In this document: piece by piece, positions 2,108 to 29,807 of the stretch
Numbering within the stretch: position 1 is the stretch's first letter
Layout of the letters: each line of letters begins with the position of its first letter
Virus record (IMG/VR): IMGVR_UViG_3300009691_000004
Location: 1 to 30,981 of that record
Direction: 5' to 3' (one strand)
DNA: 30,981 bases
Source of the DNA: a virus
Notes under the pieces: model-generated
What the model was told of the DNA's origin: nothing
Seen by the model: only the letters and a program-made list of their open reading frames with translations
Databases searched by the model: none
Made by a program: the position numbers and the translations under genes

Positions 2108-2108
2108 G

Positions 2109-3536
2109 TCAGTTTTCGTACACTTCAACCGTAACAAAATCAAGTCCTCTTAATTTAATTTGTTCGCCAGTAGTACTGTCTGTTATCCGAAACTCAAAAA
2201 CATACGCAGTCAATGGCTGTATAAAGACTTCGCTTACAATATCCCCTAAGGTTCCAATGCTTTTCCAGTCACCGTAATCAAGCCGCGCCTGAAGTTCCGC
2301 GCCTCGCGTTCCATCAGAGTGAACGTAAATCTTTTCCGAGATTGTTTTACGTCGCTCTCGATACCCAAAATCAAATTCCGGCGACTGTAAAATATACGTG
2401 ATTGCATTTCCGTTATAGTCGCTATTCCCGGTATTAAGCTGCAATACCTGTCCGTTCGTGTCTCCACCGACGATCAATGTATCATTGTCACTACTGTACT
2501 GGTGCATGGCGCGGAACTCGTGTGCGTACTTCAGCACCGCCCACTGTTCGGTGTCTACCGTCAGCCGAACGACGACATTATTGTGTGTCTCCGTATAGCC
2601 ACGGTCAAAATTCACCGTAATATCGCCGATAGACCAGTACACGTTCTCGTTGTCGCTCCATCCATTTACACTCGCATAGAATGAGCTCGCTATTCCGTCA
2701 ACGATACGCTGTATCGGCCGCGATATCCGTTTCGGATATCCTCCGTTCGTCTCATAAAAACCGTTCGGTCCATAGAAGAAGTAATTTTTGCCTCGCGCGC
2801 GCACGACACTCTTATGCGACTGCGTGCCGATGTTCACGAGGTCTTCAGGAAACGACGAGTCGAAGTTCCACCGCTTGAGAGATCGCTGCTTGTAGAGCAT
2901 CAAATACCCCGGCACTTTATTGAGTGCCTGTATCGTTCCGCCGCCGTCCTCTTGCTCTGCCTGCAAGCTGCCGGAACCGGAAGCGGTCCAACTCACTGTA
3001 CCGGCAGAGGGAGACGACGGCGTACTCGTGTAGTAGATACGGTCAGTCACGGCACAGTACATACGATCCTTGAACTCAATCGGAAACTTCCCGCCGGCCG
3101 GCGCGTTTCCTACATCAAGGTTTCCGCCTCCCGACACCCAACTTCCTGACGCGAACGATTGCGAGGTCGCGCCGTTCATCATTATCGTGGTATTGAGGAA
3201 GGTCGCAAACTCTATGCTCGCCGTAGCGCTCAAGCCGCTTAAAGAAACAGCGCCAGTTACGGCGTTGTAAATCGTTCCGTTAAACGCCGCCATGAGGACA
3301 TTGCTTGCAACCGTCGTATCAAGATGCTGAAACAGTCCAAGACACGGATTCCCTGCAGAGAGTTGTGTCCCAACGATGTTCGTACCCTCACGCGAAACCG
3401 CCTCACCGAGTACTTTGTCAAAGAGCAGGTTCAGCGAAAACGGCACGGAATTCGGAATGGTGATATCAGAACTCACCTTTTGTATGTTCCCGGCCGACAC
3501 GTCTCGCCATCGAACTGTTTGCTGTAGCCGTGCCAT
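2109..3536 (-). CDS. Propeller-like tail/DNA-stabilisation protein (P22 gp10-like role suggested)
   Basis: 475 residues from the ATG at 3536, chosen because AAGGA lies 9 nt upstream; a longer frame from 3668 would overlap the preceding gene by 73 bp and lacks such a site. The chain is rich in short beta strands with recurring aromatic and glycine patterns: FKDRMYCAVTDRIYYTS near 155-170, YLMLYKQRSLKRW near 210-225, YFFYGPNGFYETNGGYP near 250-265 and VLKYAHEFRAMHQYSSDNDT around 335-355. This is the look of a beta-propeller hub. P22 gp10, a propeller-like tail protein of similar length (about 470 residues), also follows an adaptor protein, as here. The function is inferred from fold impression, length and position; direct homology is not shown. 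Confidence 0.65.
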   Translation of the reverse strand: MARLQQTVRWRDVSAGNIQKVSSDITIPNSVPFSLNLLFDKVLGEAVSREGTNIVGTQLSAGNPCLGLFQHLDTTVASNVLMAAFNGTIYNAVTGAVSLSGLSATASIEFATFLNTTIMMNGATSQSFASGSWVSGGGNLDVGNAPAGGKFPIEFKDRMYCAVTDRIYYTSTPSSPSAGTVSWTASGSGSLQAEQEDGGGTIQALNKVPGYLMLYKQRSLKRWNFDSSFPEDLVNIGTQSHKSVVRARGKNYFFYGPNGFYETNGGYPKRISRPIQRIVDGIASSFYASVNGWSDNENVYWSIGDITVNFDRGYTETHNNVVVRLTVDTEQWAVLKYAHEFRAMHQYSSDNDTLIVGGDTNGQVLQLNTGNSDYNGNAITYILQSPEFDFGYRERRKTISEKIYVHSDGTRGAELQARLDYGDWKSIGTLGDIVSEVFIQPLTAYVFEFRITDSTTGEQIKLRGLDFVTVEVYEN

Positions 3537-3595
3537 AGTAAATATCCTTAAATAACTTATCAATTGTTTGTGGTAATTTTCTTCTCTCCATACAA

Positions 3596-5050
3596 TTAGA
3601 TCTGCTCGAACTTCCCACGCGTCGCTGCGCGATAATCGATCTCGTTTATTTTCGGTGTCATCTTCCATCGCTGTCCCGAAACTTCAGTCCGTATCGCGGC
3701 CTTCAAAATATCTTGAAACATAACGAAGTCGCTATCTTTAAGATCAAGCGTTCCGTTATTGCGCCAGTACGCTTTCGCCTGCGCGAGAAGCCAGTGTTTT
3801 ACCGCGTCATAACGCGATGTATCGAGCGTGTCCGACTCACTGTCCACCATCGTCGCTTCCTCATAGTAATCTCCGACAATGTTCTTATTGATCCACGTCG
3901 CGTCCGCAAGCGGCCACCAGCGAAGCCTTCCCTGCCGTACGTTAAAAAACTTTGGTTTACCCTCGGTCTCGTTCTGCCACACGTTCTGATCCACTGCGTG
4001 CGCCGCACCGATAGCGCCGGCGCCCGTAGCGGGAACACCCGTAAGAACTCCTGCCGTTGCCGAGCGTGTTACTCCAGTGTAGGTGATCGCGTCTAGCGTG
4101 TTCGAGCTATAGATATTCACCGTTCCTGTTGCGGAAAAATCATACGAGTTGTCTATCTCAAGCGTTGTCCCTCCAACGACCGCAAGCGTCCGTACTTGCG
4201 TTCTCGCGACATCCTTCATCTGCTCGTCAAACTCCTTCTCGTCGAGCGGTGTGAGCGGTTCCGTCGAAGTGCCGATACGCACCTGCAAGATTGCCCTGTT
4301 GGTTTCATCATCATATATATCAGCGGGAAGCGCGAGATCAAACGTCCCTCGCGCGGTCTGACCGAACACATAATCTGAAAGGAGATATTTACTCCAATGC
4401 TTGAGTTTCCCCTGCATGTACCGCAGACAGGCGTTGATCTCATCTATCGCCGTCTGCTTCGAAAAACGACTATCCCACTCGTGTCCGAGTTTTCTACGGA
4501 CAAACTCAAGAATGTAGCCAACCTCATCCTCAGCGAATACAACGGCGATTGCGTTATAGGGTATCGGATCGCTATACCGATCGTTGACGGTATTGATCGA
4601 ATCCGAAAACCGATAGTAGAAAAATCCACTCGTGATCGTCGTATCAGAGTAAATGGTATCCGCCTGCGTTGGGTCAATGTTCGCCGCAGCCGCAAGAGCG
4701 GTAAGGGTTGCGTCATCACTATTTGCATCTACCTCCGTCGCAGCACGATAAAAACGCACCTGATTCCACGGAATGACGTATACAACCGTTCCGGCTGGGT
4801 GTGCCTCAACAAGTCCCGCAGCGACGAGCGTCACCGTATTTCCCGCTGGAGCGGTGAGTGCGTGCGTAGCAACGATCTCCGCATGTTCGTTTCCAACGCC
4901 GCGAAAGAGGAGAATATTATTGACTGCAACGCCGAGAATGGACTTAACCGTAATCGAGGTCGCGCCGGCGGCGGCGTCCGCGTCTAAAACGAGCTGCGGC
5001 GCATGAAGCGTCAGCCCGTTGATGTTTGCATGTATGAAATTTTTAGGCAT
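3596..5050 (-). CDS. Putative head-tail adaptor with N-terminal beta domains
   Basis: 484 residues; GAAGG 8 nt before the ATG supports the start. Residues about 20-165 are beta-rich (AAAGATSITVKSILG, then PAGTVVYVIPWNQVRFYRAA, ending SDTTITSGFFYYRFSDSIN and YSDPIPY), a module I associate with metagenomic phage virion proteins. A helical segment follows at about 175-230 (VGYILEFVRRKLG, TAIDEINACLRYMQGKLKHW), like the helical core of head-completion adaptors of short-tailed phages. The C-terminal part includes KPKFFNVRQGRLRWWP and a last helical stretch (YDAVKHWLLAQAKAYWRN). Its place just before the propeller-like protein fits a connector at the portal. The adaptor call is inference; a baseplate or other tail protein remains possible. 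Confidence 0.55.
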   Translation of the reverse strand: MPKNFIHANINGLTLHAPQLVLDADAAAGATSITVKSILGVAVNNILLFRGVGNEHAEIVATHALTAPAGNTVTLVAAGLVEAHPAGTVVYVIPWNQVRFYRAATEVDANSDDATLTALAAAANIDPTQADTIYSDTTITSGFFYYRFSDSINTVNDRYSDPIPYNAIAVVFAEDEVGYILEFVRRKLGHEWDSRFSKQTAIDEINACLRYMQGKLKHWSKYLLSDYVFGQTARGTFDLALPADIYDDETNRAILQVRIGTSTEPLTPLDEKEFDEQMKDVARTQVRTLAVVGGTTLEIDNSYDFSATGTVNIYSSNTLDAITYTGVTRSATAGVLTGVPATGAGAIGAAHAVDQNVWQNETEGKPKFFNVRQGRLRWWPLADATWINKNIVGDYYEEATMVDSESDTLDTSRYDAVKHWLLAQAKAYWRNNGTLDLKDSDFVMFQDILKAAIRTEVSGQRWKMTPKINEIDYRAATRGKFEQI

Positions 5051-5077
5051 AGCATTGCCTTCGTTTTTTTTTCTACA

Positions 5078-5368
5078 TTATACACTTTTCATTCCCGTCT
5101 CATGTTTCCTCATGTGCAAACGCAAATAATTTTTCGCCCGCGCGTCGCTGCTGCCGCTAAATTTGTCAGCACAGCCGGGAATCTCACAGACAACCGTAAA
5201 CGCTCCCGGAAACAATCGATCGCGGCACTCGTCACACATACCCTTCCGCAATTCCTCGACATGCTCTGTTGCCTTATCCGCTTCTGCAAGCAATCCGACC
5301 CTTGATCGCATTTCAACGGGAAGTTTCCCAATCTCATATAATTTTTGATAATTTGGTGAGGATGTCAT
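5078..5368 (-). CDS. Small cysteine/histidine protein with C2H2-like finger
   Basis: 96 residues, 1 nt after the stop of the gene before it. The N-terminal half is helical and charged (residues 1-45). C45 and C48 form a CxxC (MCDECRD). C61 and C66 (CEIPGC) followed by H85 and H89 (LRLHMRKHETG) give a Cx4C-x18-Hx3H arrangement resembling a C2H2 zinc finger, including an ETG after the last histidine. Such a finger would bind zinc and could bind nucleic acid or stabilise a small structural protein. It lies between fibre-type genes and the adaptor, so it may be a minor virion protein or an assembly factor. I do not recognise the family; zinc binding is inferred from spacing alone. Confidence 0.65.
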   Translation of the reverse strand: MTSSPNYQKLYEIGKLPVEMRSRVGLLAEADKATEHVEELRKGMCDECRDRLFPGAFTVVCEIPGCADKFSGSSDARAKNYLRLHMRKHETGMKSV

Positions 5369-5369
5369 T

Positions 5370-6095
5370 TTATGCTAATCCATTCCACGTCTTTACAGAC
5401 GCGATTGCTAACCCATCGACCGTTTTTACGCTTGCCTTCGCAAGACCTCCCCATGTTTTCATGTTTGCGGGGCCTGATGCGGCTGCTTTGAAACTTGCAA
5501 TCCGAGCCGCCATCGCTCCTGTTCCTGTTCCTCGTGTCCACGTGGGGTTCACCGCTTCGGCGGTAGTCTGAATAATATACGCCATGCTTCCTCCGTAGTT
5601 GTTCCCCGAACCGAACGCATTGCTGTTGGTTATGGTGAGACTTGAACCAATGGAGATCGTTCCACCATCACTATTGAAACCTAATGCAGCAATCACAAGT
5701 TCATTATTTTCTGAAGGCGTAATACTCCCCGTTGCAAGTGTGGATGCCCCCGTGCCTGTGGCTCCATTTTGTTGATCCGCAGGAGTGGTTGTCGCGACTC
5801 CGGAAAAAGCAGCAGCTCTGATTGAACAGTAGTTTTGAGAGGCAGTATTCGAGAATGTATGGCTCGTTCCCACCGTCGGGTTCGCCACATAATAAATAAT
5901 TGTTTTGACCGTAAGCGCGCTCGAAGTGAGCGCTGTCCATGTGTTACTCTTGCTGTCAGAAATGGTCGGTGTTGCGCCGCTGTCAACGGCAACACTAATA
6001 ACCAGGAAATTCGCTCCTGTTGTATCAATAGCCCCGGTCGTAACGGTATCTGCTGTTCCGGTAGCTCCTACATTTGAAACTAATGCAACCGCCAT
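5370..6095 (-). CDS. Beta-rich virion surface protein with C-terminal KTxxGLA repeats
   Basis: 241 residues from ATG 6095, 1 nt after the preceding stop; a TTG three codons earlier (6104) would overlap that gene. The body is a serine/threonine/glycine-rich beta domain (AVDSGATPTISDSKSNTW, then AAAFSGVATTTPADQQNGA, ELVIAALGFNSDGGT) of the type often seen as a jelly-roll module in phage and surface proteins. The last 30 residues repeat a KT-W/V-G/D/N-GLA motif three times (KTWGGLAK, KTVDGLAI, KTWNGLA). Similar short repeats end many metagenomic phage structural proteins. No Shine-Dalgarno is visible, so coupling to the upstream gene is likely. A fibre or head-surface decoration role is inferred from composition and position. 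Confidence 0.6.
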   Translation of the reverse strand: MAVALVSNVGATGTADTVTTGAIDTTGANFLVISVAVDSGATPTISDSKSNTWTALTSSALTVKTIIYYVANPTVGTSHTFSNTASQNYCSIRAAAFSGVATTTPADQQNGATGTGASTLATGSITPSENNELVIAALGFNSDGGTISIGSSLTITNSNAFGSGNNYGGSMAYIIQTTAEAVNPTWTRGTGTGAMAARIASFKAAASGPANMKTWGGLAKASVKTVDGLAIASVKTWNGLA

Positions 6096-6096
6096 A

Positions 6097-6795
6097 TTAT
6101 ACAACTGTTATATAGTCATTTGACGGATTAAAAAATAACTCATCGGCCGTAAGCGCAAACCCGACCCGACGAATAACATCATCGGTCCCGGACGGTTGCG
6201 CTACTTGAATATCTCCGGCGGTAGTGCTCACATATGCAGGCGCGCCCACGGTAAGCGCAGGAAACGCCGTGTCAGCGCGAAGTACGCCGAAAAGAAGCAA
6301 CGTCGTCGCGCTGCCGTCACCTGCCGCAGCCAAAACACACATCCCCAGCATTACATCTCCTGACGTCGACGCTGCATCTGCATCCGTAAGTTCCCACCGG
6401 CTATCAGCAACCGCCAAATAGCAGAGATCACCGAACGCAAGCGCCGCACCTGCAGTCCCCGCAATAGTAATACCAGTATATTTTCCATCAGCAGACCCGG
6501 CGGGGTCGAGGGCGATCGAGTTATTTTCCGCAAGCGTAATGGTGCCGCCAGTCGTAAAAGCGCTCGGAGTCGTGAGTGTCGGAGAGGTCAGGGTTTTATT
6601 CGTAAATGTTTCCGTCAGAGCCAGCGTCGCAAGTGTTGCTGTCGAGGACGGAAATGTTATCACCGCACTGCCCGCGCCGGTGATCGTTGCGTCGCCTCCG
6701 GTCACCGTCAGTTTACGCGCGGTGGTGCCGCCGGATATGTCGAAACCGTCAGCGTTTATCGTTACATCGAGATTTGTAGAATTACGTTTTGCCAT
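6097..6795 (-). CDS. Fibre-type virion protein
   Basis: 232 residues, 4 nt after the stop of the glycosidase-like gene. After a short beta-rich N-terminus comes a phrase common in phage fibre proteins (ETFTNKTLTSPTLTTPSAF), then SIALDPAGSADGKYTGITI and a compact C-terminal domain (AFGDLCYLAVADSRWELTDA, VMLGMCVLAA, LFGVLRADTAFPALTVGA) ending in DYITVV. The C-terminal domain recalls small capsid or fibre decoration modules in which a property flag changes over time, but I cannot assign a family. The terminal ITVV is shared with the 8835-9827 protein, suggesting a shared terminal strand or trimer cap. Its role in the virion is inferred from neighbours and composition. Confidence 0.65.
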   Translation of the reverse strand: MAKRNSTNLDVTINADGFDISGGTTARKLTVTGGDATITGAGSAVITFPSSTATLATLALTETFTNKTLTSPTLTTPSAFTTGGTITLAENNSIALDPAGSADGKYTGITIAGTAGAALAFGDLCYLAVADSRWELTDADAASTSGDVMLGMCVLAAAGDGSATTLLLFGVLRADTAFPALTVGAPAYVSTTAGDIQVAQPSGTDDVIRRVGFALTADELFFNPSNDYITVV

Positions 6796-6799
6796 AAAA

Positions 6800-8086
6800 T
6801 TACATTGTTATTGAACTAATCCCTGTCATCGACCCGACGCTCGACGACTGCGGTATAAGACTAACGTCGTCCTCCGGGGGCGTACCGACAGTCCACTTCG
6901 GCGTCACGGTATAGGTATCGAGCGCCGCTCCATTATACGTCACTCGAAACTCATACTGCGTCGACGTTACCGAGTCCGCAGTTGCCTTAATACACCACTC
7001 AAGTTCTGTATATTTTCCCGACCCAAGATCAAGCGCCGGAGCAGGATTCGAGGTCTCCAGTATTGTTCCTGCCTGAAAATCAGCGCCGGCAGTTTTCCCG
7101 GAAGGCGCGGTAAGTTGCGCGGTAGTGGCAGCGCCGTCCGCAAATTGTGTCGAGGCAGCAAGAGAAAAAGAAACCGCGGACGCTGGAGGGACATTATTAT
7201 CAATCGAAGGAGCAACATCAGTCGCAAACCGGTCACCGGTATCTTCATGGTTCGCCCAGTTGAAAGCTCCTTTCGGTGTACGGCCGTCAGAGACCAACGT
7301 ATCATAAGCAGTTACTGCATCGGCGAAACTCCACCGAGCAGAAGTCCCCGTCGCCGCACAGGAAAATCCTACACCGATATAATCCCGCGGAATCTGCGTG
7401 CTCACGCCGTCTACAGTCACCGCCGTATTATAATAATCAAGATAGTACCGGGCATTTGCGAGCGTATTGAGATCCGAAGGATCATAAAATTGCGGACAGA
7501 GCCAATCCAGTACACCCTCTTTGTATAATTTTGCAAGAAGCAACCGATCACTCGCCACCTGCGATCCGGCATTAGATGCCGGGTACGCAGCAGGCGGAGA
7601 TGTGAACATGAAATTAGTCCCGTAATACGACTGAAGCTGTTGCCCCGCATACGCCATCCATGTTGATTGAGCGGGGAACGACGAGACTCCTTCAAAATTA
7701 TTCCAATCAATACCGTCAAACGCCATTGTGGTTCCGGAACCGCCAAGCCCAGCGTTCATATCCTTGATACTTTGCACAAACGCATCGGCGCGCGCTTGCG
7801 TTTGAATGTATACCTGCCCGCCGGCGCCACCGACAGAAACAAGAATCTTCTGCCCTCGCGCACGACAAGTAGCAATGTCGGCATTCTGATTCGTGCCAAT
7901 CGTACCACCGGGCTTACGAAGAACTACCGCACCAGTAGTACCTCCAGCGACTTCACCGTCCGCCGGATACGCATGAAACATATTTATGATGTTGTATGTC
8001 GTCGGAAAATCCACAAGACGCTTGAACGGCGCCCACCAGACCCAGTAAAGCGCAACGGGATTCACCGGCATTCGTGTTGAAGGCAT
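6800..8086 (-). CDS. Virion-associated glycoside hydrolase, GH18-like TIM barrel plus C-terminal beta domain
   Basis: 428 residues. Residues about 10-290 read as a GH18 chitinase-type barrel: YWVWWAPF near strand 1, KILVSVGGAGG (80-90, the SxGG motif), FDGIDWNNFEG (123-133, the catalytic strand 4), FMFTSPPAAYPAS (159-171), LDWLCPQFYD (193-202) and KGAFNWANHED (272-282, the strand-8 tryptophan). In GH18 the motif is DxxDxDxE; here it reads DGIDWNNFE, with Asn in place of the third Asp and the Glu one residue later, so activity may be altered or lost. From about 305 to the end is a separate beta domain, possibly a carbohydrate-binding or attachment module. It lies among fibre genes, so I infer a virion enzyme or binder acting on N-acetyl sugar polymers of the host envelope. 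Confidence 0.72.
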   Translation of the reverse strand: MPSTRMPVNPVALYWVWWAPFKRLVDFPTTYNIINMFHAYPADGEVAGGTTGAVVLRKPGGTIGTNQNADIATCRARGQKILVSVGGAGGQVYIQTQARADAFVQSIKDMNAGLGGSGTTMAFDGIDWNNFEGVSSFPAQSTWMAYAGQQLQSYYGTNFMFTSPPAAYPASNAGSQVASDRLLLAKLYKEGVLDWLCPQFYDPSDLNTLANARYYLDYYNTAVTVDGVSTQIPRDYIGVGFSCAATGTSARWSFADAVTAYDTLVSDGRTPKGAFNWANHEDTGDRFATDVAPSIDNNVPPASAVSFSLAASTQFADGAATTAQLTAPSGKTAGADFQAGTILETSNPAPALDLGSGKYTELEWCIKATADSVTSTQYEFRVTYNGAALDTYTVTPKWTVGTPPEDDVSLIPQSSSVGSMTGISSITM

Positions 8087-11160: not shown

Positions 11161-14100
11161 TTAAGAGACTGCATTGCTGAACGGAGTGATCTCTGTACCA
11201 CTTGCTTGCGAGTATCCTCGCACGAACCAATGATCAGAAGTCGCATCAACGAGTTCAAAGTATTCACCCTGTGCCGCGAGACCGGAAGTCGAGCGGTTAA
11301 GAGTGATCGTGTCGTCGTTGTCCGCAGCCCACCAAATATTCGGAGCAGTCGCGGTATCAGAGTCTTGGATAACGAACCCGCGCATCTCATCAGTAGCATT
11401 TGCCACCTGAATGATGTGGCTGTTCGATGTCGCAGTCACCGTAACCAAAAACCTATAGATCGCGCCTGACCCCGTTGCATCCGGCAAGGTAATCGTCGTC
11501 CCGCTTGCGGTATCAAGCGCAATGAGCCTGCCTTCGTGAGCAATAGTTACCGTCAGCGCCGAACCGCCCGCTACCAATCTGCCAGAGACATCATTCCATC
11601 GGTTGAGCTCTGTTGCCGTTGCCGCAAGACTCGTCGTTCCGTCATTGAGCGTCGTGTAGTTAAGCTGGCCGGTAACAGTAACCGCTTCATCGAATGTCGC
11701 CGTACCATCATCTACCTTGAGCGCCTCAACATTCGCACCGGTCGCACTGATGTAGACCGCGTATGCGCCCGCAGTACCAGCGCCCGTCGTTTGCTCAACC
11801 GCAAGAACGTTAGAAGTTGCACTCGGAGAACCCGTTGAGAGAAGCCGCACCGCATCCGCGCCAGCAACGAGGGCGCCCGTATGCGAAACATCGAGGACAA
11901 CTCCCTCACCGGAAGTGCCTGTACCCGCAGAAGATACGTAGATCGCCTGCCCCGCTACTGCAGTACCCATCGCGATGCTCAACGCGGATCCGGTCGAAGC
12001 GGCTGTCGCAAATGTCAACTGAATAAGGTTCGAGTCAAGAAGTCCTGTCTGGTTGACGAACAAAACGTGATCATCTGTTCCGCCATCAGTGCCCGTATTC
12101 GCAATATAGATAAGTGGAGCGGTTCGTATGCCTGCCGCATCAATAAGCATCGCATTACCCGCAAGGTCAGTACCCATGTCCACATGGATCGCGTGGCCCG
12201 TTGCGGCACCTGTTGCGTAGACAATATCGAGCACATTCCCTGTAGAGACACCAGTGAGGTTAATGTCAAACACATGACTATTTGAAGTCGACGTGTCGTC
12301 AATCTTAATGAGATCGTCTGTGCGCGTTCCTGCCGCGTCAAGAACGAACGCAGACCCTTCAACTGCAGTCGCCATGTCCACATGAATTGCTTCTCCTGTG
12401 GCAGCCGCAGAAAACACGATATCGAGCACGTTCCCGGTATATACACCGGAAATGTTAATGTCGAAGATATGCGAGTTTCCAGTGGAAGAATCGTCGATCT
12501 TGATAAGATCGTCCGTGCGGGCGCCAGCGGCAGTCAAGAGGATTGCAGAACCGGCTACATTGTCAGCCATCACTACAGAGATTGCTTCTCCTGTGGCCGC
12601 GGCCGAGAAGGTAATGTCGAGAACATTCCCCGTATAAACACCGGAAACATTAATATCAACAATGTTCGCGCTTCCTGTTGAAGAGTCGTCAATCTGAATC
12701 AAGTCATCAGTACGAGCACCCGCTGCCGCAATTAAGAGCGCAGCACCAGCAAGGTTCGTACCCATATCAATCTGCACCGCGTCTCCTGTAGAAGCCGCGG
12801 ACGAAAAAGCGATATCGATGATATTACCCGTGTAGAGTCCCGTAACGTCTATATCGATGAAGTCAGAAGCTGCAGCGCCAGTCATGGTGATGTCCGCATT
12901 AAGGAACGTGCCACCTGCACCGGACCCGAAGGTGCCGTCAAAGGTAACAAGGATCGTTTCTACGGTGCGTGCGCCGGCGTGATCAATCGTAAGCGCCTTG
13001 TATGCGACACCTGCGTCAAGATTCAAGTGAACCAGTGATCCTGTTGTCGCCGCGCCCGAGGTAGTAAGTGTTAATACACTTCCGGTGAATACGCCGCTCA
13101 CAGTCATCAGCATGATGCCGTCAACGCTTCCTGTTTCAGATGTAGTTACTTCTATAAGATTATCCGTTCGTGCGCCCGCGCCCGTAATATTGATAGCTGC
13201 GCCAGCTACGTTGTCAGCCATGACTACGTTAATCGCGTTTCCTGTATCGGCTGCCGAGTAGGTGATGTCGAGAATGTTCCCCGAACCAACTCCTGACGAG
13301 TTGATGTCAAAAACATGACCCGTACTGGTATTGGAGTCGGCAATCTCCATAAAGTCACCCGCTCCCGAACCATCATGGGTTATGGCAACCAAGTTCGCCG
13401 TTCGTGCCTCGTTACTGCCGTTGATCGTTATTGCAACACCACCCGTTGACGCATTTAAGTCGAGGTTGATAAGGCTACCGGTAAAAGTCGTCGAGGTCAC
13501 AATATCCAAGACATTCCCTGAACCGGCCCCATCAACGTTTATATCGATGTAGACAGCGGAACCAGTAGCGTCAGAACTCAACTCAACGTATGGTTGCGTG
13601 CGAACACCAGACCCTTCGACGTGAAGTGCGGTCATCGCAACAGCATTATCCAAGTTTACGAAGAATACATTACCGGTAGCGGCCGCCGAGCTTGCGAAAT
13701 CAAAGACATCGCCAGTGTACACGCCGGTCAAATCAACATCGATAATATCAGCGCTTCCAGTCCCCGCATCATCAATGTTGATGAGTGGCGCCGTTCGTAC
13801 TCCGGTTCCGCCGGACAAAAGAATCCCGTTTGTATCAAGGTTAGCCGAATTATCGAATACAATACTGATCGCAGAACCGGCAGGAGACCCCGCATATGAC
13901 CCCACAAAATCAAATCCAATCGTCGCGCCTGACCCTGAGGAATTGATATCCAGAACGCTGTGGTTACCCGTCGAATCATCCGTAAACTGAATATCCGCGC
14001 CAGTGCGAGCTGTTCCACCCGAATCAATATGAATCGCTCGGGCTGCAATAGCCTGATCCATATCAAGATAGATACCGCGTCCGGTTGAAGCGCCGGTGAA

Positions 14101-14463
14101 AAGAAATTCAAGTGCATCGCCTGACTTCGCTCCCGACGTGGTGATACGAAGCGTATCAAGCGCTCCGGTTGTCGGGTCAGTCAAGACAATCGCTCCGGCA
14201 TCCACCGTCACCGCTTGTCCGTTTTCGTATACGCCGTTCAAGTCTCCCACGGAACCAACCGCGGAAGTAAGAAGATTATATTCCGTCGTACCGTCCCAAA
14301 AACGTAACGAACTTGAACGACGATACAAAAGCATGTCGTTCGCGGAGGTCGGCGTTGTCGTGATGTTCGCATCAAAGCGAATCGCGCCAAGATCGCTTGC
14401 GCGTCTCTGGCGAATATTAAATCCACCGACAGACGCTGCTCTGCCTGAATCAAATGTAGGCAT
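11161..14463 (-). CDS. Giant repeat-built virion protein (about ten 65-residue repeats)
   Basis: 1100 residues. After an N-terminal segment of about 120 residues, the chain is built of repeats of about 65 residues. A typical unit is AGARTDDLIKIDDSSTG, then IFDINISGVYTGNVLDI, then AAATGEAIHVDMATAVEGSA. The Arg-Thr marker occurs ten times (ARTG, VRTA, VRTQ, ARTA, ARTD, ARTV, ARTD, ARTD, TRTD, IRTA). Regular short strands with D, G, T and N turns suggest a beta-solenoid. From about residue 940 is a different end domain (TSLAATATELNRWNDVSGRL, common in phage fibres, and IWWAADNDDTITLNRST). It follows the major capsid gene directly, so it may be a head fibre, a capsid appendage or a tail fibre. 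The DNA is also repetitive, with phrases recurring between 12.2 and 13.8 kb, so repeat gain or loss is likely. Confidence 0.75.
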   Translation of the reverse strand: MPTFDSGRAASVGGFNIRQRRASDLGAIRFDANITTTPTSANDMLLYRRSSSLRFWDGTTEYNLLTSAVGSVGDLNGVYENGQAVTVDAGAIVLTDPTTGALDTLRITTSGAKSGDALEFLFTGASTGRGIYLDMDQAIAARAIHIDSGGTARTGADIQFTDDSTGNHSVLDINSSGSGATIGFDFVGSYAGSPAGSAISIVFDNSANLDTNGILLSGGTGVRTAPLINIDDAGTGSADIIDVDLTGVYTGDVFDFASSAAATGNVFFVNLDNAVAMTALHVEGSGVRTQPYVELSSDATGSAVYIDINVDGAGSGNVLDIVTSTTFTGSLINLDLNASTGGVAITINGSNEARTANLVAITHDGSGAGDFMEIADSNTSTGHVFDINSSGVGSGNILDITYSAADTGNAINVVMADNVAGAAINITGAGARTDNLIEVTTSETGSVDGIMLMTVSGVFTGSVLTLTTSGAATTGSLVHLNLDAGVAYKALTIDHAGARTVETILVTFDGTFGSGAGGTFLNADITMTGAAASDFIDIDVTGLYTGNIIDIAFSSAASTGDAVQIDMGTNLAGAALLIAAAGARTDDLIQIDDSSTGSANIVDINVSGVYTGNVLDITFSAAATGEAISVVMADNVAGSAILLTAAGARTDDLIKIDDSSTGNSHIFDINISGVYTGNVLDIVFSAAATGEAIHVDMATAVEGSAFVLDAAGTRTDDLIKIDDTSTSNSHVFDINLTGVSTGNVLDIVYATGAATGHAIHVDMGTDLAGNAMLIDAAGIRTAPLIYIANTGTDGGTDDHVLFVNQTGLLDSNLIQLTFATAASTGSALSIAMGTAVAGQAIYVSSAGTGTSGEGVVLDVSHTGALVAGADAVRLLSTGSPSATSNVLAVEQTTGAGTAGAYAVYISATGANVEALKVDDGTATFDEAVTVTGQLNYTTLNDGTTSLAATATELNRWNDVSGRLVAGGSALTVTIAHEGRLIALDTASGTTITLPDATGSGAIYRFLVTVTATSNSHIIQVANATDEMRGFVIQDSDTATAPNIWWAADNDDTITLNRSTSGLAAQGEYFELVDATSDHWFVRGYSQASGTEITPFSNAVS

Positions 14464-24093: not shown

Positions 24094-24164
24094 ACCACCC
24101 TAAAGTGACTTGACCACCCTTTCTGAAAGATCGGGTACCACCCTAAAAATAGTACGACCACCCT
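24094..24164. repeat. Four ACCACCCT sites in an imperfect tandem repeat (iteron-like)
   Basis: ACCACCCT occurs at 24094, 24113, 24137 and 24157, all in one orientation, with spacings of 19, 24 and 20. They form two imperfect tandem copies of a unit of about 43 bp (24089-24131 and 24132-24174), each ending GAAAGATCG- or GGAAGATCG-like. They lie 30 bp after the RHH gene stop. Such arrays are typical of replication iterons or of multi-site operators. Confidence 0.75.
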
Positions 24165-24530
24165 TTTTGGAAGATCGAGTGGTTTTTTGTGGTGCGCAGG
24201 TGCGTGTGAGGGGGACCCTTTTCACTATATAAAAAAATAATGGAGTCCCGATTTTTCGGTCTGGGGTTTTCTCGTGAAACAAGGTCGCACAATATATCCC
24301 AGACAGCACAAAACACATCACTGACTGACGGTAGAACGTAAGCGTGGCTCTATCACACGTCATCATAAAATGTTGTATGATGTTTGACTTTGCGTATAAT
24401 TTATCTTATACGCAAGTTATCCACTTGACAAAAAAAATCTAAAAGAACATACTGTTTTCAACGTGTAAAGGCCTAAAAATCGCGGCCACACGCATGGGTC
24501 GATCAATTATTAGATAATCATAACCACATC
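24165..24530. promoter_or_regulatory. Control region before the early genes: palindrome and promoter
   Basis: 366 bp without a believable gene. It holds an AT-rich stretch near 24225-24240 and a perfect 10-bp inverted repeat TTGCGTATAA/TTATACGCAA (24390-24399 and 24406-24415), with a TTGACT directly before it. A promoter-like TTGACA (24425-24430) and CATACT (24448-24453) lie 17 bp apart. A near DnaA box TTATCCACT (8 of 9) is at 24417-24425. Another small palindrome, ATTAT-TAG-ATAAT, sits before the ATG at 24531. I infer rightward transcription of the early genes from here, with the palindrome as operator. Confidence 0.5.
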
Positions 24531-25013
24531 ATGAATAACAAAAAGGGCAACTGGCCGCCAGTCAAAGACGCCGCAATAGCACGAAGCATCGAGCGATGCT
24601 TCCGTCTCGGATCAATGGATCACCTCACACTTGACGCTTACAATTTCGTCATTAATATGGACGGGTTTATTGCGCACTACAACATAAACGGCTTTCGTGC
24701 CTATTATAGCGACCTGCGAGACTTTGCAGATAAAATACTGCGCGGCGGTTTACTTGCAGGTTCCACACGCGAGGATGAAGCAGCTTATTGCATGGATGCA
24801 GATTTTATCAAAGAATACGGCGAGGCACGCTGTGCAAGTAAGGCGCGCGCTATAAAAGCGATCGTCTCCCTTACTCAAGGATACCGAGCGAAAACCGAGA
24901 CACAAGGCGCGCAAAACGATAAAAACGAAATCGAACTTTTGGCCGAGTGCGTCAAAAGAGCACGAGGAGATGCGACATTCGCGCGGCAATTTTTATCAAC
25001 GCTGCTGCGCTAA
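24531..25013 (+). CDS. Early protein, unknown
   Basis: 160 residues, first gene after the control region; no Shine-Dalgarno. The protein is mixed: KDAAIARSIERCFRLGSMDH, then LDAYNFVINMDGFIAHYNIN with aromatic residues, FRAYYSDLRDFADKILRGGL, and a helical C-terminal half (ARAIKAIVSLTQGYRAK, IELLAECVKRARGDATFARQ). No known motif or membrane segment. As the first early gene it could counter a host defence or alter host functions, but this is only position. Confidence 0.6.
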   Translation: MNNKKGNWPPVKDAAIARSIERCFRLGSMDHLTLDAYNFVINMDGFIAHYNINGFRAYYSDLRDFADKILRGGLLAGSTREDEAAYCMDADFIKEYGEARCASKARAIKAIVSLTQGYRAKTETQGAQNDKNEIELLAECVKRARGDATFARQFLSTLLR

Positions 25014-25045: not shown

Positions 25046-25095
25046 GGCTCTTGATACAGCGCGCAAACTGTACTTGCGCGCTGTAATGAGGAGCT
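25046..25095 (+). ncRNA. Structured RNA motif, copy A
   Basis: Outer stem GGCTC (25046-25050) with GAGCT (25091-25095, one G-U); internal loop TTGATA / TAATGAG; inner stem CAGCGCGCAA/TTGCGCGCTG (25057-25066 and 25074-25083), a perfect 10 bp with 7-nt loop ACTGTAC. The same architecture with different stem sequences occurs at 26153-26213 and 27110-27159. It lies 33 nt after the 24531 gene's stop. Changes in the outer stem and the internal loop keep pairing, which supports selection for RNA structure. Confidence 0.7.
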
Positions 25096-25138
25096 CATAC
25101 TTCTCTGGAGCTAGCGTCCAAAGTCGCTACTGCTCCTC
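25088..25138 (+). promoter_or_regulatory. Alternative stem competing with RNA copy A
   Basis: GAGGAGC (25088-25094), the 3' side of the outer stem of copy A, is also perfectly complementary to GCTCCTC (25132-25138). Inside is a further perfect hairpin TAGCG/CGCTA (25112-25116 and 25125-25129). The RNA can therefore switch between two folds ahead of the 25175 gene, as riboswitches and attenuators do. Confidence 0.45.
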
Positions 25139-25174
25139 TACTGGTCGAAGCATTACTAACCAAACAAAAAAAAT

Positions 25175-25726
25175 ATGTCAAAAAATTTCCAGATACTTGC
25201 AGGGGAGACACACGACGGAGAACTGTATTTTGTCGAAGTTGCGCCAGTAAGCGCGGAGCATACATATTTTGCTATAGGCGGCTTTACAGTGCGTCCAACT
25301 AAAAAAAGCGAAGCTTTGGAGCGATGCCGCGAACAACTAGAGGACGACGTGAAACTATGGCGGGGTGCGGTCGCGGCGGGTTATACGCAACTGGGACATC
25401 AAGACTGGGTGCAGTATGTACTGGCGACAGACGGCGAGCTTGCGGGTTTTGATAACTCGCTCTATGCAGAAGAACTGGAGGTGAACGGTGATCAATGGCT
25501 TTTTGAAAGCGGCAGTTGTGGGCAGCATCATGAGCAGAACTTGAAACGTTACTATATACCAGAAGTGTATTTTGATAAGTTGCTGGCCATGTGGAAGACG
25601 CATCACCTAAAAAAAGAAAATCCGCTGGGACTCACGGGACTACTGGATGACTTACGAGTAGAGGGCTGGACGCATAAGAATACACAGACGGCTTTTATCA
25701 CGGAAACGATAAAGAGCATTGAGTAA
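25175..25726 (+). CDS. Early protein, unknown
   Basis: 183 residues after an A-rich leader with no Shine-Dalgarno. A strand-rich start (MSKNFQILAGETHDGELYFV, THTYFAIGGFTV-like) is followed by a helix with many charged residues (SEALERCREQLEDDVKLWRG), then HQDWVQYVLATDGELAGF, and WLFESGSCGQHHEQNLKRYY near 108-128, where a Cys and paired His residues could bind metal. The C-terminal part is helical. No family recognised. It lies downstream of structured RNA copy A and its alternative fold, so its translation may be controlled by it. Confidence 0.6.
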   Translation: MSKNFQILAGETHDGELYFVEVAPVSAEHTYFAIGGFTVRPTKKSEALERCREQLEDDVKLWRGAVAAGYTQLGHQDWVQYVLATDGELAGFDNSLYAEELEVNGDQWLFESGSCGQHHEQNLKRYYIPEVYFDKLLAMWKTHHLKKENPLGLTGLLDDLRVEGWTHKNTQTAFITETIKSIE

Positions 25727-25803
25727 CAAAAAAAAACGACGCAGTATGTATGCGGCGCACAAAAGGTCGGTTTTTACTGGCTCGTTAAAAAACAAAAAAC
25801 ATC

Positions 25804-26151
25804 ATGACAGCAGTACAACTAACAGGGCTCGCTCACGAACTGCACAAGGCGATGCTTGTGCATAAACTCGCAGACAAAGACGCGGCCGATTGGTACGACA
25901 GGGTAGACAAGTTGAACGATTGTCTGGGCGAAGTCGGCGCAGAGGTAAATCTTGACTGGCACTGTACAGACATGGACGGTTATGTCGAGGTCTCTTACTG
26001 GAGCGCGAAGTTACGCCATAACATAACGCTTGACGCGGACGCATGGACTGAATACGAAACGCTGGAGGAATTAGCAAGAGAACTTGTACGCTACAACGAC
26101 AAGGCACGGACGCTAGAGGATCGAATACAACTGACGCCAGAGGTAGTCTAG
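25804..26151 (+). CDS. Small acidic early protein, unknown
   Basis: 115 residues; the leader is almost pure A with no Shine-Dalgarno. Helical start (LTGLAHELHKAMLVHKLADK), then DAADWYDRVDKLNDCLGEVG, a strand pair (EVNLDWHCTDMDGYVEVSYW) and a C-terminal helix (EYETLEELARELVRYNDKAR). The composition is acidic with several Trp. Small acidic early proteins of phages often act as DNA mimics or inhibitors; that is a general observation, not evidence here. RNA copy B begins 1 nt after its stop. Confidence 0.58.
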   Translation: MTAVQLTGLAHELHKAMLVHKLADKDAADWYDRVDKLNDCLGEVGAEVNLDWHCTDMDGYVEVSYWSAKLRHNITLDADAWTEYETLEELARELVRYNDKARTLEDRIQLTPEVV

Positions 26152-26152
26152 T

Positions 26153-26213
26153 CGGCTCTTGGTAGTGTGCGGAGTGCTCGCAAGAGCGGCACACGCACAC
26201 TAGCGAGGAGCTG
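26153..26213 (+). ncRNA. Structured RNA motif, copy B
   Basis: Outer stem CGGCTC (26153-26158) with GAGCTG (26208-26213, one G-U); internal loop TTGGTA / TAGCGAG; inner stem GTGTGCG/CGCACAC (26165-26171 and 26194-26200). Inside is a further hairpin GCTC-GCAA-GAGC (26176-26187) with a GNRA-type tetraloop. It starts right after the stop of the 25804 gene and lies 47 nt before the clamp-like gene. GCAAGG follows the outer stem, as in copy C. Confidence 0.7.
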
Positions 26214-26260
26214 CAAGGTCGAGCGGTGGCCAGTGTTAGCAACAAATAAAAAAAACTAGC

Positions 26261-26860
26261 ATGCTGTATAACAAAAACAATTTATCCGTTGCAAAAATCG
26301 CAAGCGTGAACGCTCTTAAACCAGAACTGGCAAGCGTACTTTTTACGAAGACGCACACGGCTGCTACGGACGGCTTTCGCTTGCTGGAGATGTCAGTAGA
26401 CGCGAGCGCGAACATTGAGGACTATCCGCAAGCGAACGGTGTGAGTGCCATGCGCGGGTTTAAGCCCTTTCTGGTAAACGCAAAGGCACTCGCGGAGGTA
26501 AAGCCGCCGACAAAAACGAGCTTGCCGATACTCCAGTATGTGGCGATCAAGCATGTGGATCAAACGCGCGTGGAGTTTGTAAGCATGACTGGAGACATGG
26601 AGGCACACGTTTCGACTGTGCGGCGTGTTGAGGGTGAGTTTCCGAACTATGAGCCGCTCTTTCCTGCGGGCGAACCAGTAGCGAGTGTGCGGGTGAACGG
26701 CGTATATCTTGCAGAGTTGGCGAAACTCATGGGAGACATGTTAAAACTTCAAGTTTTGGATATAGAGTTTTATGGCGCAGGCAAACCGCTTGTGCTCCAT
26801 GCCGAGAGCGAGCACGGGCGACAAAAGTCGAGAGCATTACTCATGCCGATAAGGATATAA
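26261..26860 (+). CDS. Shortened beta-sliding-clamp-like protein
   Basis: 199 residues, about half the usual DnaN length (about 370). Recognisable phrases of the bacterial clamp occur in order: KTHTAATDGFRLLEM near 29-43 (compare ATDGHRLA), FLVNAKALAEV near 70, STVRRVEGEFPNYEPLFPAG near 116-136 (compare the VDGRFPDY-x4-P that links domains 2 and 3), VNGVYLAELAKLMGD near 144, and ALLMPIRI at the C-terminus (compare YVVMPMRL). It seems to retain domain 2 and part of domain 3. It may form a ring of more subunits or act as a decoy or adaptor for host polymerase. It has an A-rich leader and no Shine-Dalgarno. Similarity is by eye and should be tested by structure. Confidence 0.65.
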   Translation: MLYNKNNLSVAKIASVNALKPELASVLFTKTHTAATDGFRLLEMSVDASANIEDYPQANGVSAMRGFKPFLVNAKALAEVKPPTKTSLPILQYVAIKHVDQTRVEFVSMTGDMEAHVSTVRRVEGEFPNYEPLFPAGEPVASVRVNGVYLAELAKLMGDMLKLQVLDIEFYGAGKPLVLHAESEHGRQKSRALLMPIRI

Positions 26861-26864
26861 AAAT

Positions 26865-27107
26865 ATGCGAACGCTAACATTGAAGCAAAAAAAGATGCTC
26901 GTGGCGTGGGCGAACATGCATCTGCGAAAAGAGTCTATGTTTGACAGGGCGGACGAGATTGACAGCGAGACATACGACGCAATCAACGCGGTCAATCCGT
27001 GTGAGATATTTTACCAGAACGCAAACCACCTCCTTGAGCAGTTGCGGCCGGTATACAAGAGAGGGTCGAGCGCGTTTGGAATTGTCGGGTGGCAAGTACC
27101 ACAATAG
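26865..27107 (+). CDS. Small early protein, unknown
   Basis: 80 residues, 4 nt after the clamp-like gene, with AAGGAT 8 nt before the ATG, so it is probably co-translated. A helical, basic start (LTLKQKKMLVAWANMHLRKE) leads to an acidic middle (MFDRADEIDSETYDAINAVN) and YQNANHLLEQLRPVYKRGSS, ending FGIVGWQVPQ. No motif recognised. Pairing with the clamp-like gene suggests a replication-related partner. RNA copy C starts 2 nt after its stop. Confidence 0.58.
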   Translation: MRTLTLKQKKMLVAWANMHLRKESMFDRADEIDSETYDAINAVNPCEIFYQNANHLLEQLRPVYKRGSSAFGIVGWQVPQ

Positions 27108-27109
27108 AT

Positions 27110-27159
27110 GGCTCTTGGTAGTGTGCGGGACATCACTTCCCGCACACTAACGAGGAGCC
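27110..27159 (+). ncRNA. Structured RNA motif, copy C
   Basis: Outer stem GGCTC (27110-27114) with GAGCC (27155-27159), fully Watson-Crick; internal loop TTGGTA / TAACGAG; inner stem GTGTGCGGGA/TCCCGCACAC (27121-27130 and 27138-27147), 10 bp, loop CATCACT. As in copy A the inner loop has 7 nt. GCAAGG follows the outer stem. It lies 2 nt after the stop of the gene before it. Confidence 0.7.
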
Positions 27160-27188
27160 GCAAGGAGACGTTATGAGAATGGGTTGTA

Positions 27189-27236
27189 TGAGGGTCGCTG
27201 ACACGCTACCCCTCAATCATGCAACTGCTGGCATGA
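27189..27236 (+). other. Two further hairpins after RNA copy C
   Basis: TGAGGG (27189-27194) pairs with CCCTCA (27210-27215), with weaker pairing inside, and TCATGC (27217-27222) pairs perfectly with GCATGA (27231-27236). They stand next to each other without a T-tract. With copy C they make a structured stretch of about 125 nt with no clear gene, perhaps one larger RNA. Confidence 0.4.
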
Positions 27237-27265
27237 CGCTCTAAACGGACGACTCGACACTGTGG

Positions 27266-27583
27266 ATGGCTGGATGCGTTGTCTTCAGTAGCCCCGTCTG
27301 GCGAAATATGGGGTGGCGATCCGGAATAGACGGGTACACTGCATATCGCGCTCGTCGCTGTGTGCTAGATGTCTTGAGCATCGTATCAAGGAGTAAATAT
27401 ATCGAGGTCGGTTGTGCGGTACCGGTAACAAAAGCCGCAAAGGTTTGCAAGCACCTTTTAATCGGCGCAGCTCACGTACAAGCGAGCGGTGCGGATTGCG
27501 AAAAATTGCGCTTTGACAACTCACGGCAACCGGTTATGCGGGGAGCAATCCGTAGCGTGGCCGATTTTGCTGTGAGTGAATGA
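27266..27583 (+). CDS. Hypothetical protein, doubtful
   Basis: A 105-codon frame between RNA copy C and the recombinase. The C-terminal 70 residues look more protein-like than the start (RSKYIEVGCAVPVTKAAKV, HLLIGAAHVQASGADCEKLR), so the true start may lie further in. No Shine-Dalgarno, no motif, and it is in another frame from the recombinase, so it is not that protein's missing N-terminus. It may be a real small gene or chance; the gap would otherwise be about 460 bp of non-coding DNA. Confidence 0.35.
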   Translation: MAGCVVFSSPVWRNMGWRSGIDGYTAYRARRCVLDVLSIVSRSKYIEVGCAVPVTKAAKVCKHLLIGAAHVQASGADCEKLRFDNSRQPVMRGAIRSVADFAVSE

Positions 27584-27621
27584 AAGCGCAATAGGGCTCT
27601 GCGGCCGGAAAATATCGAAGT

Positions 27622-28194
27622 ATGAAAAAACAAAAACGAGAAATAGTATTTTTGAAGCGCACGGATGTTGAGAAGATCATCAAGCGCATCGCGCCATACG
27701 GCGATCGCAATCTCCGTGACCGCGCGCTTCTTGAGACGCTTTTTTCTACTGGCCTTCGGATCAGCGAGGCGCTTGCGCTCCACACGACGGATTTTGAATG
27801 GGACACGACAGACTGGATGCGGGAGACAAAAGAACTTTCGATCATTGGGAAGGGTGGCCGGAAGCGGGTGGTGTTTTTCTCCACGCGTTGCCTCAAGGCG
27901 ATCCATGCGTATCTAAAAGCGCGCCGCGTGCGTGAGAGCGAGACCCGGGTTTTTCCGGTCAAGGTGCGAAACGCGCAGTATATCGTGAAGGTGCGGGCGA
28001 AGGACGCGGGACTCTCCAGCACGCTCACGCCGCATTCGTTTCGCCATAGTTTTGCGACTGATCTATTGCAGCGCGGAGTAAACCTGCTCTACGTCAAGGA
28101 GTTTTTAGGCCACGCGGACATTAGCACGACGAGTCGGTATCTGCACACCACAAACAAGGAGTTGTATGACTTGCATAAGAAGCTACACGTATGA
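27622..28194 (+). CDS. Tyrosine recombinase, catalytic domain only
   Basis: 190 residues, against about 300 for XerC/D; about the size of FimB/FimE (about 200). All catalytic residues are visible: R46 in STGLRISEAL, K77 in IIGKGGRKRVV, H138 and R141 in PHSFRHSFATDLL, H164 in FLGHADISTTSRY and the nucleophile Y173. The usual N-terminal core-binding domain is missing. It cuts and rejoins DNA through a 3'-phosphotyrosine, for integration, dimer resolution or inversion. No att site could be identified. Its last codon overlaps the helicase start (ATGA, 28191-28194), so both are translated together. Confidence 0.88.
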   Translation: MKKQKREIVFLKRTDVEKIIKRIAPYGDRNLRDRALLETLFSTGLRISEALALHTTDFEWDTTDWMRETKELSIIGKGGRKRVVFFSTRCLKAIHAYLKARRVRESETRVFPVKVRNAQYIVKVRAKDAGLSSTLTPHSFRHSFATDLLQRGVNLLYVKEFLGHADISTTSRYLHTTNKELYDLHKKLHV

Positions 28195-29807
28195 AGGTTG
28201 AAAAAAACGGAAACTATCTTGAAATATCGTTCGCGTATAATCCACAGCTCGTCTCATGGATGAAGACTTTTGAGAACCGTGTCTTTGACGCGCGCCGGAG
28301 AGTGTGGCTACTGCCGCTTGCAGGTTCTCGGGACGCACTTAAGCGTCTCGCGGCGCGCGGGTTTACGATCATGCCGGAGGTTGAGTTGGAGCTCAATCTG
28401 GACGCTTCGCGCGCGCGTGAGGCGGAGCGGATTGCCATGCTCTCGACGATTGAGATCGACTCTCCCTTGCCGCTCTTTCCCTACCAGAAGGTCGGGGTGG
28501 CGTTTCTCTCTACAATCGGTTCCGGGTTGCTTGGTGATGAGATGGGACTTGGCAAAACGGTGCAGGCTCTCGGCGTGTGCGAAGAGGTAGAAGCGCAGAA
28601 GGTGCTCGTGTTTGCGCCCTCGGCGGTGAAATGGCAGTGGGCGGGAGAGATCGAGAAGTTTATCCCGGGCGCATCGATTGCGGTGATCGAGGGTGCGGTG
28701 GACAAACGCGTTGAGATGTGGAAAAAAGAGGCGCGTTTCTATGTGGTGAACTATGAGTTGCTGCTGCGGGATTTCGGGATGATCAGCGCTCGTGTCTGGG
28801 ACATCATCATCGCGGACGAGGCGACGAAGATCAGCAACCCCACGACAAAACAGAGCAAGGCGATCAAGAAGCTGCGCGCGAAGCGTCGGATCGCCATGAC
28901 CGGCACGCCGGTCAGCAACAGGGCGAACGAGATTTGGAATATCATTGACTTTTGTCAGCCCGGTGCGTTCGGAAACTACTGGGCGTTCCTGAACCGATAT
29001 TGCCTCAAGAACCGGTTGGGCGGGATATTCGGGTATCAGAACATGGACGAGTTGGGGAACCGACTCAAGCGATACATGATACGGCGGCTCAAGAAGGAGG
29101 TGTTGCCGGACTTGCCGGCAAAGATTGTAACGGACATACCGTTTGATATGAGCAACAAGGAGCTGGCACTCTATCGGAATATCAAGAAGGAGATATTGTT
29201 CGAGATCGAGAAACAGGATATTTCGAAATTGCATACTCCGATGAGCATACAGTACACGTTGGTCAAGATGCTTCGGCTCCGGCAGCTTGCAGACAGTATG
29301 GAATTGCTCGGGCAGAATGTGCAGTCGTCGAAAATGGAGGTTTTGTGCGAATTATTGGAAGAAAACGTGCAAAATGGACGAAAGGCCATCGTTTTTACCG
29401 GTTTTTCGCAGATGGCGGACATTATTGAGCGCGAACTCATGGTTTGTGGGTACAGTCCACTCAAGATTTCCGGTTCGATCAAGGAGGAGTATCACGAGGT
29501 GGTGCGGAAGTTTAACGAGATTGAGGAACATAAGGTGTTGGTGATGACGAGCGCCGGGCAATTTGGCCTCAACATTCAGCGTGCCTCGGTTATTTTTCAC
29601 TATGATCAAGAATGGTCACTTGCAAAGATGGAACAGCGTGAAGGTCGAGCGCATCGCTACGGGCAAAAAGACACGGTACTGGCCTATAACTTGCTGGCAC
29701 GGGGCACGGTGGATGAGTATGTGAAACGGATACTCTTTGACAAGAAGAAACTGGCGGAAAGTATCCTCATGGACGACGTTATGGCGATGCTCCGTCATGG
29801 CGACTAA
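28191..29807 (+). CDS. SNF2-family DNA helicase/translocase
   Basis: 538 residues. The N-terminal 60 residues (FAYNPQLVSWMKTFENRVFD, RRRVWLLPLAG) resemble the small HARP-like module found before phage SNF2 domains. The motor has Q-like LFPYQKVGVAFL (95-106), Walker A GDEMGLGKT (115-123), Ia VLVFAPSAVKWQW (138-150), motif II DEAT (209-212), III MTGTPVSNR (236-244), V TSAGQFGLNIQ (453-463) and VI QREGRAHRYGQ (482-492), with arginines 486 and 489. This set is diagnostic of SNF2-type ATPases that move along duplex DNA without classical unwinding. Co-translation with a recombinase suggests a role in replication fork or recombination work. Confidence 0.9.
   Translation: MKVEKNGNYLEISFAYNPQLVSWMKTFENRVFDARRRVWLLPLAGSRDALKRLAARGFTIMPEVELELNLDASRAREAERIAMLSTIEIDSPLPLFPYQKVGVAFLSTIGSGLLGDEMGLGKTVQALGVCEEVEAQKVLVFAPSAVKWQWAGEIEKFIPGASIAVIEGAVDKRVEMWKKEARFYVVNYELLLRDFGMISARVWDIIIADEATKISNPTTKQSKAIKKLRAKRRIAMTGTPVSNRANEIWNIIDFCQPGAFGNYWAFLNRYCLKNRLGGIFGYQNMDELGNRLKRYMIRRLKKEVLPDLPAKIVTDIPFDMSNKELALYRNIKKEILFEIEKQDISKLHTPMSIQYTLVKMLRLRQLADSMELLGQNVQSSKMEVLCELLEENVQNGRKAIVFTGFSQMADIIERELMVCGYSPLKISGSIKEEYHEVVRKFNEIEEHKVLVMTSAGQFGLNIQRASVIFHYDQEWSLAKMEQREGRAHRYGQKDTVLAYNLLARGTVDEYVKRILFDKKKLAESILMDDVMAMLRHGD

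Follow-up and report, generated by a model that had tools for sequence, protein, structure and literature searches.

The intergenic hairpins of the early T7 mRNA (R0.3, R0.5, R1, R1.1 and R1.3) are processing signals for RNase III, an enzyme whose sites usually have little sequence in common. The lambda nut (boxA/boxB) and HK022 put elements are likewise RNA hairpins of phage early operons, and GOLLD, ROOL and other large phage RNAs are represented in Rfam. How phages of the Patescibacteria, a vast and mostly uncultured radiation, express their genes is hardly known.

The hairpin described here is a real, previously uncatalogued structured RNA family under selection, and it shares several traits with the T7 signals. 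Like these, it occurs in several copies between the genes of a polycistronic early region, after stop codons, and forms an irregular hairpin in which an asymmetric internal loop separates two stems and the tip is a small cap; the T7 sequence, folded here around its sites for comparison, gave a similar plan of two stems. With its 18–27 pairs it has the T7-type format, that of an intergenic, irregular RNA duplex about two turns long and interrupted by an internal loop. The apical TCGCAAGAGTG of one copy (L139b) is identical over 11 nt to the T7 R1.1 cap, an identity that may be due to chance or to convergence on a stable loop. Unlike in the T7 sites, however, the sequence of the hairpin core hardly varies, the distance to the stop codon is kept more tightly, and the internal loop and the lower stem differ. 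A search of T7 positions 800–7000 with our covariance model of the hairpin (R1), using no filters, gave a best E of 0.12 and no homology to the T7 sites; the hairpin is therefore proposed to work like the T7 signals, not to be one of them.

The window, i.e. the whole 30,981-base virus record analysed here, contains three copies (A, B and C) on the plus strand, exactly where the earlier note had placed them from the letters of the DNA. The copies and their neighbours are:

24531..25013, plus strand: 160-aa ORF without family match, upstream of copy A
25046..25095, plus strand: hairpin copy A, outer stem GGCTC/GAGCT, core TTGA/ATGAG, 12-bp inner stem, 7-nt loop
25804..26151, plus strand: 115-aa ORF without family match, stopping 2 nt short of copy B
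26154..26212, plus strand: hairpin copy B, outer stem GGCTC/GAGCT, core TTGG/GCGAG
26261..26860, plus strand: sliding-clamp (DnaN-like) gene after copy B (phrog_947, 1.5e-8)
26865..27107, plus strand: 80-aa ORF stopping 2 nt short of copy C
27110..27159, plus strand: hairpin copy C, outer stem GGCTC/GAGCC, core TTGG/ACGAG
27166..27600, plus strand: larger structured RNA with no convincing ORF (modelled core 27162-27242; 3' end approximate)
27622..28194, plus strand: tyrosine recombinase of the phage integrase family, following the larger RNA
28191..29807, plus strand: SNF2-type helicase

Copy B has a long inner stem with the apical sequence TCGCAAGAGCG and extends over 26153-26213 if one extra C-G pair is counted. 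Against the covariance model, copy A scored 51.6 bits (E 5e-13), copy B 48.8 bits and copy C 52.3 bits. The box GGCTCTTGRTA is found exactly three times in the record, always on the plus strand, and neither on the other strand nor in a reversed control. All three copies fold better than shuffled sequences (z of -6.0, -6.2 and -7.5 for A, B and C), with none of 200 shuffles folding as well. The earlier note had stated that the copies are not tRNAs and lack T-tracts; indeed, a tRNA search was empty, no T-tract follows the aligned copies and a terminator scan listed none at A, B or C. A simple intrinsic terminator, consisting of a GC-rich stem and a T-tract, was rejected because the aligned copies have no T-tract.

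In total, 19 clear copies were found in 11 phage or prophage records, namely A, B and C and 16 in ten others; G002 and G003 add two or three weaker ones. A first pattern search of IMG/VR, in which the two conserved boxes were fixed and the inner part was left free, gave seven stretches, four of which have long, well-paired inner parts of different sequence. The other three (L008-L010) represent a single shared chance sequence and were rejected because their inner parts are unpaired. A broader descriptor revealed extra copies in those phages, and nothing in 1.1 million shuffled bases scored as high. Further pattern scans and model R1 added L112, L139 (two), L172 (two), L209 and L301. When R1 was run against 380 Patescibacteria genomes one true copy was obtained (L169), i.e. 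one among the several hundred host genomes sampled, in searches which were filtered and can lose weak matches. A second match in these genomes (L170) looks like part of a coding gene and is without the core G; it was rejected, as were L059, L189 and other weak matches with unpaired inner parts. In addition, the minus strand of L025 contains damaged or recombined copies at 3142-3090 and 2528-2440, which have kept the 5' box and have an altered or replaced 3' side, and near them lies another hairpin, CCGGCNGATAGTCGTAAGNCCGG.

The consensus has an outer stem NGCUC/GAGCN (GGCUC/GAGCY) and a core UUGR/RYGAG. The outer stem continues via a fixed U-G and a U-A pair up to a fixed G-G mismatch. Beyond the mismatch come an R-Y pair, an R bulged out on the 3' side and an inner hairpin that varies in sequence and length. 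The total helix comprises 18–27 pairs around the asymmetric internal loop, with stems of -25 to -40 kcal/mol. Of the internal loop as first drawn, TTGRTA opposite TARYGAG, the R and Y form a real pair, and the flanking TA/TA belongs to the inner stem and is replaced by C...G in other phages.

The inner stem is free to change, and unrelated inner stems still pair throughout the 19 copies from 11 records. In the 19-copy alignment, two-sided changes are seen at 13 of 17 base pairs and 96.3% of cells are paired, counts that are biased upwards since some copies were chosen by a descriptor demanding inner and R-Y pairing. Free of that bias are the unselected pattern matches and the compensations in outer stem and core (GCUC/GAGC to GCGC/GCGC in G004, U-A to C-G in L169); the GCGC/GCGC change is also present in L301. 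The covariation score of the alignment was reached by none of 500 shuffles, and sliding the partner by 1–3 columns reduced pairing to 41–48%. The R-Y position covaries as a Watson-Crick pair (15 A-U and 4 G-C among the 19 copies), which bears out the remark that the loop change from GG to GA is matched by C to T on the opposite side, and a kink-turn reading of UUGA/UGAG was dropped on this account.

Rfam 15 gave no match at gathering score in the window or in nine homologous loci, and a relaxed threshold gave only chance matches (mir-784, Cgb105) far under the cut-offs. A description of the motif was not found in literature searches, which covered a small part of the T7 RNase III literature. 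The earlier note had let its proposal of an undescribed structured RNA motif depend on covarying homologues and on the absence of a known Rfam family; 19 covarying copies in 11 records exist, and no Rfam 15 family matches.

The fixed U-G pair is present in 19 of 19 copies and would be an A-C mismatch on the opposite strand, for which reason an action as sense-strand RNA is favoured. Every copy is sense-oriented relative to the preceding gene. This strand-specific pair and constant orientation, the placement at stop codons and the lack of an attC core argue against a DNA element, such as a recombination site, an attC-like cassette end or a mobile repeat, which is merely RNA-like. We regard such an element as extremely improbable, even though the copies do separate exchangeable small genes, an integrase gene is nearby, and the inner stems before the clamp gene in G003 and G004 resemble each other. 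As to integron attC sites, of which the bottom strand is recombined, their conserved RYYYAAC/GTTRRRY ends were, by eye, not common to the aligned copies, and the U-G pair favours pairing on the plus strand.

With regard to position, the hairpin begins at -2 to +9 nt relative to the end of a stop codon (ORFs of at least 50 aa) in 18 of the 19 copies, a spacing that only 2.9% of positions in these contigs have (P about 4e-27). The earlier note had put all three copies of the window just after a stop codon, which is true of B and C, each starting 2 nt after TAG, but not of copy A, the one exception, at 32 nt. The copies sit between successive genes, with up to three clear ones per phage, and the distance to the next start varies widely, several copies having no start nearby.

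Such tight and consistent spacing would also be expected of a 3'-end protector and ribosome-gated insulator that acts without cleavage, blocking 3' exonucleases or Rho after the last ribosome; a ribosome at termination would sit over the outer stem's 5' strand, and the stems are stable (-25 to -40 kcal/mol) with no T-tract. For a plain barrier, however, there would be no need of a conserved loop with a fixed G-G mismatch and a bulged R, or of a copy preceding a non-coding RNA, and we consider this explanation unlikely. A translational switch, in which a Shine-Dalgarno-like 3' GAGGAG would be masked by the 5' strand and released by a ribosome on the stop codon, thereby coupling the genes, is very unlikely. 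Most copies do pair GAGGAG with CUCUU directly after the stop codon, but in most the next start lies beyond Shine-Dalgarno range or none was found, six copies precede a non-coding RNA, and the variants GAGAGG and GAGGCG lose the Shine-Dalgarno match while keeping the pairs. The genes also have A-rich leaders without a Shine-Dalgarno-like signal, and masking was rejected. Among the functions offered by the earlier note, a regulator of the next gene fits poorly, given the widely varying next-gene distance and the six non-coding neighbours; for a mobile element nothing direct was found, and a processing signal fits best.

Many early genes have a leader box GGTCGR 30–49 nt before the start codon and none closer than 30 (21 cases against about 2 per 10-nt bin elsewhere). 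The box is followed by an A-rich stretch without a Shine-Dalgarno signal, and hairpin copies are often located between the stop codon and the box. It was seen at:

Window: 24497, 25143, 25765 and 26217
L172, minus strand: 3681, 3414, 2931, 2428 and 1789
L029: 18424 and 18856
L025, minus strand: 2028

Copy C ends about 7 nt 5' of the second, larger structured RNA. The roughly 450 bases between this copy and the integrase gene contain no convincing gene and instead form a structured RNA with P1, an internal loop GAGAATGG/TGCTGG, P2, more hairpins and a 3' loop CC-GGAATAGAC-GG. Of the 25 predicted pairs of the core 20 show compensatory changes, in an alignment of only six sequences. The RNA of the window scores 83.3 bits (E 8e-23) against the corresponding model, R2, which finds exactly six phages in 450 kb of related contigs (E 3e-17 or better) and gave no match in 362 Patescibacteria genomes. 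It is a large, structured phage RNA like GOLLD, ROOL and others, but unlike these it has no gathering-score match in Rfam 15, neither in the window nor at the homologous loci. Homologues are located at:

L022: 18315-18760
L112: 3612-4077
L411: 5310-5890
L029: 19809-20000, and L030: 9-340
L025, minus strand: 470-40

A hairpin copy lies upstream of the larger RNA in all six phages that carry it, 5–8 nt away in four of them. In G003 a 166-aa ORF (L025, minus strand, 970-470) separates the hairpin from the larger RNA, as if inserted; read by eye, this ORF looks like an HNH endonuclease. It is possible, though less likely than not, that the two RNAs constitute one system, in which the hairpin would be a new class of translation-gated element with its own protein or RNA reader, active after ribosome exit and defining the 5' end of the large RNA.

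The records that carry the hairpin are not of one kind. The window phage shares clamp, helicase and partly terminase/capsid-region genes with G002, G003, G394, G004 and L112, whereas the structural genes of G001, G009, G393, L172 and G236 are largely different; the motif thus crosses phage lineages. The sliding-clamp gene, for which phrog_3007 (labelled RusA-like) scores better (5.5e-12) than phrog_947, is conserved among the motif-bearing phages of the window's group. Some phages with a related clamp gene (G005, L164) are without the hairpin, which is therefore not essential everywhere. The hosts of the motif-bearing phages are probably Patescibacteria. The clamp gene has a 44% relative on a Parcubacteria MAG contig, and the L169 copy is close to genes for portal, terminase and capsid. 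Its contig, 79 kb in length, contains a release factor, tRNA-Thr, pheT and gyrB as well; since phage and such bacterial genes share the contig, this copy lies in a prophage of a Patescibacteria genome. Neither the clamp gene nor the 327-aa late gene has a relative among cultured phages, and the terminase has distant relatives only, under 30% identity.

Taken as a whole, a processing or insulation function is favoured. We tentatively suggest, at somewhat less than an even chance, that the hairpin is a site of processing and insulation within polycistronic mRNA of these phages, similar in action to the T7 RNase III signals and not homologous to them. The hairpin would be a cis-acting RNA element in the early/replication-region polycistronic mRNA of Patescibacteria phages, which could fold fully once the ribosome leaves the stop codon just ahead. 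An endonuclease, most likely host RNase III, would recognise the irregular helix of about 22 bp and cut at or near the conserved asymmetric internal loop. The upstream message would then keep a 3' stem right behind its stop codon, and the downstream unit would be freed, which is the leader of the following gene or, in the case of copy C, the 5' side of the large non-coding RNA.

For this explanation speak the selection on structure, the sense strand, the intergenic copies placed behind stop codons and before the large RNA, the helix of 18–27 pairs with its asymmetric loop, the cap shared by L139b and R1.1, and the presence of RNase III in the host phylum, where 53 of 59 sampled Patescibacteria genomes have it. 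From these we infer the cutting, its enzyme and site, and an effect on stability or translation. Against processing count the lack of a T7 model match, the absence from G005 and L164, the 32 nt at copy A and the nearly fixed UUGR/RYGAG, which is unlike usual RNase III sites and suggests a sequence-specific reader.

The main rival is that the hairpin is bound by a dedicated partner, either an RNA-binding protein from phage or host or an RNA polymerase complex, as in nut- or put-like antitermination or anti-polarity, where the conserved internal loop would be the recognition surface and the inner stem a scaffold only. Indeed, the conservation of UUGR/RYGAG goes far beyond pairing needs, and six to eight copies possess a second conserved piece at the tip: UCGCRAGAGYG is common to six copies from different phages (winB, G003d, G004b, L139b, L209 and L169), is looser in G002b and G004c and is absent from the remaining copies. 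In addition, the 5' strand of the hairpin, GCUCUUGAUA, recalls boxA (UGCUCUUUAACA), and repeated copies in an operon whose untranslated spacers are long could act against Rho. Unlike the boxA of nut sites, which is single-stranded, however, the boxA-like strand here is base-paired and varies together with its partner (GCGCUU, GCUUUU). In addition, no Rfam match was obtained, and the copies are placed behind stop codons, whereas nut and put usually occur once per operon near the promoter. A terminator scan of the early region gave 11 against 8.7 in shuffles, no clear excess. We hold a dedicated binder of this kind to be possible, though less likely than processing.

With this family, mRNA processing in these phages can be tested on cell-free transcripts, without culturing host or phage. 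It offers a model for searches, a rule of position (behind stop codons) and the larger RNA linked to it, and the motif model can help to flag Patescibacteria phages in metagenomes.

Two further repeats were observed in the window. Positions 12221-13545, inside a 1100-aa gene (11161-14463), contain repeats about 195 bases apart which are 64–81% alike, and the product of this gene is perhaps a tail or fibre protein of repetitive build. At 24112-24180, immediately upstream of the early region, two imperfect 25-base direct repeats GACCACCCTTTYTGRAAGATCGRGT lie 44 bases apart and are possible operator or origin repeats.
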